A stretch of DNA of 64,000 bases from positions 2,043,501 through 2,107,500 of the forward strand of contig NZ_CP110678.1 in NCBI RefSeq assembly GCF_026167545.1, written 5' to 3'. Origin of the DNA: Sphingomonas sp. S1-29. Its GTDB lineage: Bacteria > Pseudomonadota > Alphaproteobacteria > Sphingomonadales > Sphingomonadaceae. A program made the translations under genes and the position numbers. This document shows positions 13,894 through 46,263 of this stretch, in pieces; position 1 is the stretch's first letter, and the number at the start of each line of letters is the position of its first letter. Below the pieces are notes generated by a model. The model was not told where the DNA came from. It searched no databases and saw only the letters and a list, made by a program, of their open reading frames with translations.

Positions 13894-13947
13894 CCGTATT
13901 GCGGACACTCGACCCACCCCCAGCCCCTCCCTTTCAGGGAGGGGAGG
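13894..13947. repeat. Right half of family A repeat split by IS30
   Basis: CCGTATTGCGGACACTCGAC followed by CCACCCCCAGCCCCTCCC and AGGGAGGGGAGG matches the right half of the intact family A copy at 9295-9422. Joining it to 12593-12669 restores a complete element. Confidence 0.85.
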
Positions 13948-30468: not shown

Positions 30469-30595
30469 CCCTCTCCCCTCCGGGGAGAGGGTTGGGAGAG
30501 GGGCTGTCATGAAGCGCATCGCTCCTCTGCCCCTCTCCCGACCTTCCCCCGGCATTCGCCGGGGTCGGCCACCCTCTCCCCGGCGGAGAGAGGGC
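30469..30595. repeat. Family B two-hairpin repeat with an extra hairpin
   Basis: The element has hairpin CCCTCTCCCCTCCGGGGAGA with following GGG, inner arms GGGAGAGGGGCTGT and CTGCCCCTCTCCC, and a second terminal hairpin CCCTCTCCCCGGCGGAGAGAGGG. Unlike the 5486-5581 copy, it carries an additional CCCCCGGCATTCGCCGGGG hairpin in the right half. It fills the convergent junction between the LOG gene and the cytochrome c gene. Confidence 0.8.
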
Positions 30596-42207: not shown

Positions 42208-42332
42208 CTCCCCTCCCTGGAAGGGAGGGGCCGGGCGTGGGTCGAGTGCTCGCGCTACGGCGGCGACAGGTGCGAGGAGAGCCATCTCCAGGCCCCTACC
42301 CACCCCCAACCCCTCCCTTTCAGGGAGGGGAG
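42208..42332. repeat. Family A REPIN-like repeat, complete copy
   Basis: Hairpins CTCCCCTCCCTGGAAGGGAG and CCCCTCCCTTTCAGGGAGGGG-type arms flank GGGCGTGGGTCGAGTGCTCG and CTACCCACCCCCAACC, the usual complementary inner arms, around a variable core. It separates the E2 gene from the PP2C gene on the same strand. Confidence 0.86.
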
Positions 42333-42335
42333 CTT

Positions 42336-43703
42336 TTACTCAGCGAACAGCAGCACCGGAGTCTCGAGCAGCTTCTTCACCGCCTGGACATAGCTTGCCG
42401 CGTCGAAGCCATCGACGACGCGGTGGTCGCAGCTGATCGACAGGTTCATCAGCTTGGCGCGCACCAGGTCGTCGCCGCGGAACATCGGCCGCTCGACGAT
42501 CTTGTTCGGCCCGATGATCGCCACCTCGGGGCGGTTGATGACCGGCGTCGTCGCGATCCCACCCAGCGGCCCGAGCGAGGTGATCGTCAGCGTCGATCCC
42601 GACAGCTCGTCGGACTTTGCCTTGCCGGTGCGCGCGGCGTCGGCCAGCCGGCCGATCTCGCTCGCCAATTGCCAGACATTCTTGTCCTGCGCGTCGCGGA
42701 TCACCGGCACCATCAGCCCGGCATCGGTCTGCGTCGCCATCCCCAGATGCACGCTGCCATGCCGAGTCACGACGCCGGCTTCGTCGTCATAACGCGCGTT
42801 GAGCATCGGGAAATCGGGAATCGAGCGACAGATCGCGACGATCAGCAGTGGCAGCATCGTCAGCTTGGGCCGCGCGCCGCGATTGGCGTTGAGATCGGCG
42901 CGCATCTCTTCCAGCGCGGTGACGTCGATCTCGTCGACATAGGTGAAATGCGGGATCGCGCGCTTCGATGCCGCCATATTCTCGGCGATCCGCCGGCGCA
43001 TCCCGATCACCTTGACCGGCACATCGGCGCGCGCGCGGCTGGCCCCCGGCGCGTGATAACCCTCGCCGCCGCCATAGCGCAGATACGCATCGAGATCGGC
43101 GTGGCGGACGTGATTGCCATCGGATTTCACCGAGGCGAGGTCGACGCCCAGCGCCTTGGCACGCGCACGCACCGCCGGCGAAGCCAGCACCTGCTGCTGC
43201 TCCCTCTCCCCCCCGGGGAGAGGGCCGGGGAGAGGGGCAGTCGGGGCAGCTGGCGCAGTAGGCGAGGTTGGCGTGCCATTACTGCCCCTCTCCCAACCCT
43301 CTCCCCGGAGGGGAGAGGGCTTTTCGGGCTCGCCGAGCCCCGCGTCCTTCGCCTCAACACGAATCCGCGCATCTTCCTCGGGCGTGGGACACACCGCTTG
43401 CGCGTCGCTCGCCTCCTCGACCCCCGGATTCTCCGCGACCATCGTGTCGCTCTCGGTCACCGCCTCGGTTTCGATCACCACCAAGGTTGCGCCGATCGCC
43501 ACATGGTCGCCGACCTCGCCCGCAAGTTCGACGACGATCCCCGACACCGGCGATTCCATCTCGACGGTCGCCTTGTCGGTCATCATGTCGGCGATCTGCT
43601 GGTCTTCCTCGACCCGGTCGCCGACCGCGATATGCCATTGGACGATCTCGGCCTCGGCAATGCCTTCGCCGATATCGGGCAGGCGGAAAGAGAAACGCGC
43701 CAT
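42336..43703 (-). CDS. bkdB: Branched-chain 2-oxoacid dehydrogenase E2 (dihydrolipoyl acyltransferase) with repeat-encoded linker
   Basis: E2 of the branched-chain 2-oxoacid dehydrogenase complex transfers the acyl group from lipoate to CoA. The 455-residue product has an N-terminal lipoyl domain (about 1-80, lipoyl Lys44 in MMTDKATVEME), a linker, a peripheral-subunit-binding domain (about 172-208, LASPAVRARAKALGVDL) and a catalytic domain with SCDHRVVDGFD. Residues about 129-168 of the linker (from [12 protein letters not shown] to GPLPGGERE) are translated from a family B palindromic repeat. ATG 43703 is preceded by CGGAGTG from the adjacent family E repeat. Confidence 0.94.
   Translation of the reverse strand: MARFSFRLPDIGEGIAEAEIVQWHIAVGDRVEEDQQIADMMTDKATVEMESPVSGIVVELAGEVGDHVAIGATLVVIETEAVTESDTMVAENPGVEEASDAQAVCPTPEEDARIRVEAKDAGLGEPEKPSPLRGEGWERGSNGTPTSPTAPAAPTAPLPGPLPGGEREQQQVLASPAVRARAKALGVDLASVKSDGNHVRHADLDAYLRYGGGEGYHAPGASRARADVPVKVIGMRRRIAENMAASKRAIPHFTYVDEIDVTALEEMRADLNANRGARPKLTMLPLLIVAICRSIPDFPMLNARYDDEAGVVTRHGSVHLGMATQTDAGLMVPVIRDAQDKNVWQLASEIGRLADAARTGKAKSDELSGSTLTITSLGPLGGIATTPVINRPEVAIIGPNKIVERPMFRGDDLVRAKLMNLSISCDHRVVDGFDAASYVQAVKKLLETPVLLFAE
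43200..43319. repeat. Family B repeat inside the E2 coding sequence
   Basis: The stretch has the complete family B architecture: hairpin CCCTCTCCCCCCCGGGGAGA with GGG, inner arms GGGGAGAGGGGCAGTC and ACTGCCCCTCTCCCAACC, and the terminal hairpin CCCTCTCCCCGGAGGGGAGA with GGG. It is in the bkdB reading frame without stop codons and is about 120 bp, a multiple of three. It lies between the lipoyl and subunit-binding domains, where length is tolerated. Confidence 0.88.
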
Positions 43704-43712
43704 TAAAACACT

Positions 43713-43790
43713 CCGTTCGTGTCGAGCGAAGTCGAGACACCTTGGGTCATACACACGCTTCCGTTTCTCGACTTCGCTCGAAACGAACGG
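43713..43790. repeat. Family E palindromic repeat (TCGACTTCGCTCGA type)
   Basis: CCGTTCGTGTCGAGCGAAGT with CGAGACAC on the left pairs with GTTTCTCGACTTCGCTCGAA with ACGAACGG on the right. It fills the junction between the E1 beta and E2 genes, and its left edge supplies the CGGAG sequence in front of the E2 start. Confidence 0.8.
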
Positions 43791-43808
43791 AAGGGACCGA
43801 CGCGCACG

Positions 43809-44888: not shown

Positions 44889-44968
44889 GTCACCCCAGCG
44901 AAAGCTGGGGTCTCTGCGTAGCCGTCCGCGCGCTTGCGGCACGAGACCCCAGCCTTCGCTGGGGTGAC
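44889..44968. repeat. Family C palindromic repeat (E1 alpha-E1 beta junction)
   Basis: GTCACCCCAGCGAAAGCTGG (from 44889) and CCAGCCTTCGCTGGGGTGAC (ending 44968) form the outer arms, with GGTCTCTGCG and GCACGAGACC inside. One base differs from a perfect match (CCTT for CTTT in the right arm). It occupies nearly the whole gap between the E1 alpha and E1 beta genes. Confidence 0.83.
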
Positions 44969-44979
44969 GACTGGAATTT

Positions 44980-46263
44980 TCACTTTCTCGCCCATGGCCG
45001 CCCGCTCGCTTCTTCCTCGGCGAGCATCTGCGCGCGCTGTTCCTTCAGATGCCAGGGCATTTCCTCGAACACCCCTTCGAACAGCGTGTCGAGCGGCTGG
45101 TGCAACCCGTGCCCCAATATGCCGTTGGCCTCGGCCTCTTTCTGGCAACGCTTCACCAGCTCGGCGAGCTCGAGATCCTGCGCCGCGTGGCGTTCTTCGT
45201 CCCATTCTCCCAACCGAACCAAATGCCCCTTCAGCCGCGCGATCGGATCGCCCAGCGGCCAATCGCTGGCTTCATTGGCCGATCGATATTGCGACGGATC
45301 GTCCGAGGTCGAATGCCCTTCGGCACGATAGGTGAAATGCTCGATCAGCGTCGGACCCTGGTTGGTCCGCGCGCGCTCGGCTGCCCATTCGGTCGCGGCG
45401 TACACCGCCAGCGCGTCGTTGCCGTCGATGCGCAGGCCGGCAATGCCATAGCCCAGCGCGCGCGCGGCGAAAGTCGTCGATTCGGCACCGGCAAACCCCG
45501 AAAAGCTCGAAATCGCCCATTGGTTGTTGACGACGTTCAGGATCACCGGCGCGCGATAGACGCTGGCGAAGGTGCAGGCCGAATGGAAATCGCCCTCGGC
45601 GGTCGATCCCTCGCCGCACCAGGTGGCGGCGATCCGCGTGTCGCCCTTGGCGGCGCTCGCCATCGCCCAGCCCACCGCCTGCGGATATTGCGTCGCCAGA
45701 TTGCCCGAGATCGAGAAGAATGCCCCCTCGCGCGTCGAATACATGATCGGCAATTGCTTGCCCTGCAGCCGGTCGCCCTTGTTCGAATAAATCTGGTTCA
45801 TCATGTCCACCAGCGACCAATCGCGCGCGATCAGGATGCCCTGCTGGCGATAGCTGGGAAAGGTCATGTCGTCGCGCTGCAACGCCATCGTCGCGGCGAC
45901 CGCGACCGCCTCTTCGCCGGTGCATTTCATGTAGAAGCTGGTCTTGCCCTGCCGCTGCGCGCGGAACATCCGCTCATCGAACGCGCGCACCAGCGCCATG
46001 TAGCGCAGCATCCGCCGAAGCGTGTCGGGGGTCAGCCGCGGTGCCCATGGCCCCACCGCATTGCCCTCATCGTCGAGCACGCGGACCAGCCCATAGGCCA
46101 GCTCGTGAAACTGCGCCGCCGGCTCGGCGGGGTCGGGGCGGCGGCCGCTGCCCGCAGGCGGCACGATCACGTCGCTGTATTCGGCCTGGTCGCCCGGGCG
46201 GAATTTGGGCTCGGGCACGTGGAGCGACAGCGGGGGCAGGTTGGCGCGGGGTTCGCCGGTCAA
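44980..46263 (-). CDS. bkdA1: Branched-chain 2-oxoacid dehydrogenase E1 alpha subunit
   Basis: The 427-residue product is the alpha subunit of E1, which decarboxylates branched-chain 2-oxoacids with thiamine diphosphate. It has RLMLRYMALVRAFDERMF-like helix, KTSFYMKCTGEEAVAVA, the ThDP motif AATWCGEGSTAEGDFHSA followed by ILNVVNNQWAIS, and the loop EGHSTSDDPSQYR. The frame is open to a TTG at 46341, but the TTG at 46263 has GGAG six bases upstream and gives LTGEPRANLPPLSLHVPEP, a normal N-terminus. First gene of the bkd run; no E3 gene is in the window. Confidence 0.93.
   Translation of the reverse strand: MTGEPRANLPPLSLHVPEPKFRPGDQAEYSDVIVPPAGSGRRPDPAEPAAQFHELAYGLVRVLDDEGNAVGPWAPRLTPDTLRRMLRYMALVRAFDERMFRAQRQGKTSFYMKCTGEEAVAVAATMALQRDDMTFPSYRQQGILIARDWSLVDMMNQIYSNKGDRLQGKQLPIMYSTREGAFFSISGNLATQYPQAVGWAMASAAKGDTRIAATWCGEGSTAEGDFHSACTFASVYRAPVILNVVNNQWAISSFSGFAGAESTTFAARALGYGIAGLRIDGNDALAVYAATEWAAERARTNQGPTLIEHFTYRAEGHSTSDDPSQYRSANEASDWPLGDPIARLKGHLVRLGEWDEERHAAQDLELAELVKRCQKEAEANGILGHGLHQPLDTLFEGVFEEMPWHLKEQRAQMLAEEEASGRPWARK

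Follow-up and report, generated by a model that had tools for sequence, protein, structure and literature searches.

Palindromic repeats of several families translated in frame in the hinge of a bkdB-type E2 acyltransferase of Sphingomonas

Results

The E2 gene and its translated repeat

The window (the whole stretch of 64,000 nt that was analysed, from Sphingomonas sp. S1-29, hereafter G000) carries an E2 acyltransferase gene on its minus strand at 42336-43703. The frame runs for 455 codons without a stop (455 aa), and its product has three Pfam domains: a lipoyl domain (PF00364, Biotin_lipoyl; residues 6-77, 43473-43688), an E3-binding or peripheral subunit-binding domain (PF02817, E3_binding; residues 172-196, 43116-43190) and a catalytic domain (2-oxoacid_dh; residues 229-453). 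This is the third E2 of the genome, the PdhC- and SucB-type E2s being located elsewhere in it. By exclusion and from its N-terminal motif the gene is probably the branched-chain one, and we call it bkdB-type; no NCBIfam equivalog scored above its cut-off.

In the hinge that joins the lipoyl domain to the E3-binding domain, residues 129-168 are encoded by a complete inverted REP dimer of a family that we term F1 (43202-43319, minus strand like all its parts), recognized from the sequence and its core matches. The F1 hairpin core has 23 nt and the pattern CCCTCTCCCC-NNN-GGGGAGAGGG. Two such cores, mutually inverted and both with 0 mismatches, bound the element: the first in reading order lies at 43297-43319 and is translated as PSPLRGEG, the second lies at 43202-43224 and gives the PLPGGERE with which the peptide ends. 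Inside them, as read from the sequence, an inner stem arm at 43281-43294 (GGGAGAGGGGCAGT on the coding strand) pairs with its partner at 43228-43241. The inner loop (43242-43280) codes for a Pro/Ala/Thr-rich stretch and, by genome search, is particular to the E2 copy. At up to three mismatches the core pattern has 4 matches in the 64-kb window, against 0.00 expected from shuffles. An AlphaFold2 model of the E2, built from 33 aligned E2s, predicts that the insert is disordered, with pLDDT below 50 at residues 124-156 and 158-169.

A sequence-only reading of this DNA had reported a complete palindromic element in frame inside the E2 gene. The open frame of 455 codons, the Pfam domains and the exact cores bear out its coordinates, frame and domain position, and the element is the inverted F1 dimer just described. 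That reading had also described the element as intergenic elsewhere, which holds for the F1 copies examined. In the genome the F1 core occurs 19 times at one mismatch, versus 0 for a reversed control pattern. Taken alone, the arms of the E2 copy find matches of up to 100% identity across 43 nt in other copies, whereas identity over the whole dimer is just 72-75%. Most intergenic F1 dimers share the inner stem of the E2 copy. All F1 cores examined outside E2 were intergenic according to a codon-usage gene caller, a crude tool that was run on stretches of the genome; it replaced stop-to-stop ORFs, which are useless as a genic/intergenic test at the G+C content of this genome. Among the F1 copies examined, E2 is the only host gene. 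In the window one core of another family, F6 at 13925, was called marginally genic. It falls within the called gene, some 40 nt from its start, and probably lies upstream of the true one.

The same operon holds further palindromic dimers at 42211-42329, 43711-43794 and about 44930-44990. An F6 dimer lies directly 3' of E2, a repeat of another family (TCGAGCGAAGTCGAGA) separates E2 from E1 beta, and a TPAKAG/TPAFAG-type repeat separates E1 beta from E1 alpha. F4-type elements are nested in or adjoin F1 dimers at 30547-30564 of the window and at two loci elsewhere (L109 and L118), and one family is therefore able to insert into another.

Repeat against repeat in the nearest relatives

The two closest E2s, from genomes G180 and G192, have catalytic domains 99% identical to that of G000. 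The sequence-only reading led one to expect an empty site and about 40 residues fewer in the closest relatives. This was not seen: at the same hinge position both carry a repeat of a different family, F5 (ILPDTGRGTAGEAGGGGG...GPPPRAGED), and the E2s have 456 and 457 aa against 455 aa in the window. Comparison of G000 with these two in blocks of 90 nt gave 85-98% identity in the flanks but 52-61% in the insert, whose edges are sharp. Since the closest relatives carry F5 between intact flanks of 95% identity, the contrast is repeat versus repeat rather than filled versus empty. The intact frame and the 99% identical catalytic domain suggest that the insert is tolerated in the protein, as the same reading had proposed.

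Other close pairs behave likewise. The hinge holds F1 in one member and F4 in the other at 95% flank identity (G057/G023), or is filled in one and free of repeats in the other: F5 versus none (G233/G045), F3 versus none (G028/G031) and F7 versus none (G001/G006). Flank identities of distant pairs with F5 inserts were ungapped and unusable; insert identities and the close pairs were kept.

Occupancy and turnover across the genus

In a random sample of same-genus genomes, 45 of 58 bkdB hinges contain repeats, which fall into eight families (F1-F8); strict cores, one or more per hinge, are present in 39 of the 58. A ninth family, F9, was found among the nearest relatives by catalytic domain, of which 21 out of 27 carry repeats. 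Some labels are soft, as decayed copies were partly assigned to families by eye. Repeat-like hinges also occur at named loci of Sphingopyxis, Stakelama and Hephaestia; more distant (outgroup) genera have plain Pro/Ala hinges.

The predicted absence, missing from the closest relatives, does appear in the wider genus, where repeat-free hinges exist and the E2s having them are shorter (median 427 aa versus 445 aa with repeats, p = 6e-5). The single event that had been envisaged is too few. The site is a recurrent one, and the 87 same-genus E2s compared call for no fewer than 48 changes of hinge state. The number is a parsimony count, and the tree behind it, built quickly from the E2 flanks with the hinge left out, is imperfect, with many weakly supported branches; the close pairs are firmer evidence. 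Reuse of a fixed target site is unlikely: the distance from the conserved ENPGVEE motif to the insert varies among species, which argues against a single nucleotide target.

In two genomes (G052 at L049 and G280 at L098) the bkdB frame is interrupted, either within the hinge repeat or immediately beyond it. In G280 the F9 dimer shows a spacing of 52, not 53, and in G052 a perfect 52-bp inverted repeat adjoins the insert. Either the gene is really inactivated in these cases or the assembly is in error within a hairpin.

Paralogous hinges and core density

How should this record be read? We consider it probable that the hinge of Sphingomonas bkdB-type E2s is a recurrent landing place for palindromic elements, with a filter on reading phase and with turnover. 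Short non-autonomous inverted REP dimers of about 50-150 nt, from families dispersed in the genome, would insert into the hinge, and the survivors would be those that are in frame and in the single phase giving a hydrophilic, disordered peptide rich in Pro, Gly, Ala and Glu. The insert would take over part of the old Pro/Ala hinge and then decay or yield to another family, in the fastest cases within about 5% nucleotide divergence or less; the present occupant would thus be F1 in the window and F5 in its two nearest relatives. The peptide itself may well be functionally neutral.

Another explanation, to which we give somewhat less than even chances, is that the hinge is merely very permissive, much like intergenic DNA, and that its density of repeats reflects insertion pressure without special targeting. 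The predicted disorder of the insert fits this, as does the window, where intergenic DNA, at 2.0 cores per kb, comes to within a factor of about two of the hinge average. Repeat-free hinges are also found in repeat-poor genomes (median 28 versus 113.5 repeats of the five families counted, p = 2e-5, an optimistic value since related genomes do not give independent copy numbers).

The paralogous E2s of many of the same genomes point the other way. Their PdhC and SucB hinges are comparable and disordered but almost never carry repeats: 1 of 28 PdhC hinges has one and 0 of about 16 SucB hinges. The sole PdhC case (L271, in G027) is a decayed F1-like dimer. Tolerance alone leaves these clean hinges unexplained, a point that counts against the landing-place reading as well.

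Density in the relatives also argues against a merely permissive spot. In their neighbourhoods cores are 8 to 30 times as dense in the hinge as in intergenic DNA, a ratio affected by the crude caller, which inflates intergenic length. A 16-fold excess of hinge over intergenic DNA came from a sample ranked by full-length similarity, with intergenic length inflated in the same way, and is not relied on here. The random sample agrees with it in direction: at 4.1 cores per kb the bkdB hinge stands above intergenic DNA of the same loci (0.14), other coding DNA (0.03) and the remainder of E2 (0.02). In the window itself the difference is only about twofold. Across samples the hinge has 4-5 cores per kb and other coding DNA 0.00-0.06. 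Cores are thus no rarer in the hinge than in intergenic DNA, and the size of the excess is uncertain, given the crude gene caller and the unequal repeat loads of the genomes.

Reading phase, repeat load and exchange of alleles

In six families the first core always stands in one codon phase: F2 (5/5), F4 (7/7), F5 (11/11), F6 (7/7), F7 (10/10) and F9 (4/4). The minimum numbers of presence/absence changes on the tree for these families are 5, 6, 9, 7, 10 and 3, respectively. Phase is not constant in F1 (14 to 2) or in F3 (mixed, 3 to 2). Given one phase in six families, insertions appear to be filtered for a tolerable peptide. Two explanations of the constant phase remain, selection against the other phases and lateral spread of the same insert; the differing stems, inner loops and positions of the F7 carriers favour selection on phase, presumably purifying.

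Lateral spread is the core of an alternative that we regard as improbable, namely that each family entered the hinge on one or a few occasions and from there passed from species to species through homologous recombination between bkdB alleles, with the hinge as an exchangeable cassette. Constant phase within a family would follow from it. G020 and G180, though distant from each other, have F5 inserts with 93% identity, and the F3 inserts of G022 (L009) and G002 (L024), about 115 nt long, do not differ at all while their flanks differ by 3-6%. This last identity could be due to recent conversion, transfer or chance.

Against exchange, the flanks of G000, G180 and G192 are mutually similar right up to the edges of the insert, and stem variants, inner loops and the distance from ENPGVEE vary among the carriers of one family. 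Furthermore, the family found in a hinge tracks the abundance of that family in its own genome. Hinge carriers of a family have more genome-wide copies of it (mean rank 0.78 versus 0.57 by permutation, with 0 of 20,000 permutations as high), for the five families that the copy counts cover (F1, F2, F4, F5 and F7); here too the p value is optimistic, as related genomes are not independent. These observations point to independent insertion rather than exchange of alleles.

RNA structure

The fold predicted for the insert as RNA is a single long, near-perfect hairpin (-103.7 kcal/mol, z = -9.3), and hinges with repeats are structured in general (median z -5.35). Could the repeats be kept for the hairpin, for example as a translational pause at a domain boundary or as a site of mRNA processing? 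We think this very improbable. Repeat-free hinges of the same genus have no excess structure (median z -0.12), nor do those of the outgroups (0.29), which makes a conserved function of the RNA structure unlikely, and many cores contain mismatches. It is of note that the predicted mRNA hairpin at 43202-43319 must be opened by ribosomes.

Lastly, the view that the linker is older than the repeat and resembles it only by low-complexity composition has in its favour that a Pro/Ala-rich composition is natural to E2 hinges, but it is refuted by palindromic cores of 23 nt that match exactly and enclose inner stems, where chance would give 0, by the 95 strict cores observed in hinges against 0.07 in codon-shuffled ones, and by the unrelated sequence that the nearest relatives have at this place.

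Discussion

Comparison with known palindromic elements

Rickettsia palindromic elements (RPE-1, RPE-4 and RPE-6; Ogata and Claverie) are palindromic mobile repeats that lie in frame in protein genes, are translated, and occur in many unrelated genes. The sequence-only reading had likened the E2 element to them. The comparison is supported, for a palindromic repeat that is otherwise intergenic lies in frame in E2, a conserved protein gene, and is absent from relatives. The likeness is one of description. A difference is that here a single hinge, in a single gene, has been reused by eight families or more.

REPINs are inverted pairs of REPs with a spacer that form a longer hairpin, are dispersed and mostly intergenic, and are moved by RAYTs (Bertels and Rainey, PMC3116915). 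The present dimers share the first of these features, being two inverted REPs, set apart by a spacer, that can fold as a single long hairpin, and they are likewise dispersed and mainly extragenic, those of the 19 genomic F1 cores that were examined outside E2 being intergenic. They differ in that no RAYT gene flanked by a REP was found. A Y1 transposase (PF01797, RAYT fold) is absent from 36 of 40 genomes, some of which have hundreds of repeat copies, so in respect of RAYTs the dimers fall outside REPINs. The one match in G000, an IS200-like tnpA (L130, G000:C1:2623036-2623391), is broken by a frameshift and runs over two frames. The elements are therefore not clearly REPINs in the RAYT sense.

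For the CGTC superfamily of REPs, the main text of a 2013 paper reports no transposase association (PMC3733652), and our elements likewise have no association with a tyrosine transposase and occur predominantly as head-to-head dimers. In contrast, the unpaired CGTC (or TGTC, CCTC) end tag is mostly missing: a simple text test found a CGTC-type tag within 8 nt upstream in 2 of 126 F1, 0 of 34 F9, 0 of 39 F7 and 8 of 35 F4 cores. The same text classes RPE-4 and RPE-6 as CGTC REPs and describes REP dimers inside uvrA, uvrB, recB and other genes, where in its authors' view flexible linkers may make them neutral; it makes no mention of E2 genes (PMC3733652).

In-frame intragenic REPs are thus already known, from the RPEs and from uvrA and recB. 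For a site used more than once, the closest precedent is recB of Xanthomonas campestris and X. oryzae, in which, by the same account, different REPs lie at about the same site (PMC3733652). Compared with those intragenic GTAG/CGTC REPs, with two species at one site, the bkdB hinge spans tens of species and at least eight families; its occupants often change from one close relative to another, and the reading phase is constant. Literature searches on the bkdB-type E2 hinge, with partial coverage of subscription papers, found nothing. As far as this literature goes, what is new is the combination of one hinge, at least eight families, turnover between close relatives, clean paralogous hinges and constant phase.

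Implications

A bolder form of the landing-place reading can be put forward tentatively, as one that we think less likely than plain permissiveness, if not as improbable as the exchange of alleles. The bkdB hinge of the Sphingomonadaceae would be a preferred and effectively domesticated slot, to which elements moved by a machinery independent of RAYTs are targeted or in which they are favoured; each family would keep one fixed phase, and the elements would supply the interdomain linker and be exchanged about as fast as species diverge.

Mobile palindromes are usually viewed as intergenic debris that at times enters genes by accident. Here a single protein hinge documents tens of insertions within one bacterial group, made by several families; the paralogous hinges act as internal controls, and a filter on reading phase is visible. 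Two questions thereby become testable: how REP-like dimers move without a RAYT, and how often mobile DNA turns into working protein. Because the hinge keeps its reading frame, it can serve as a record for each lineage, its occupant indicating which repeat families have recently been active there.
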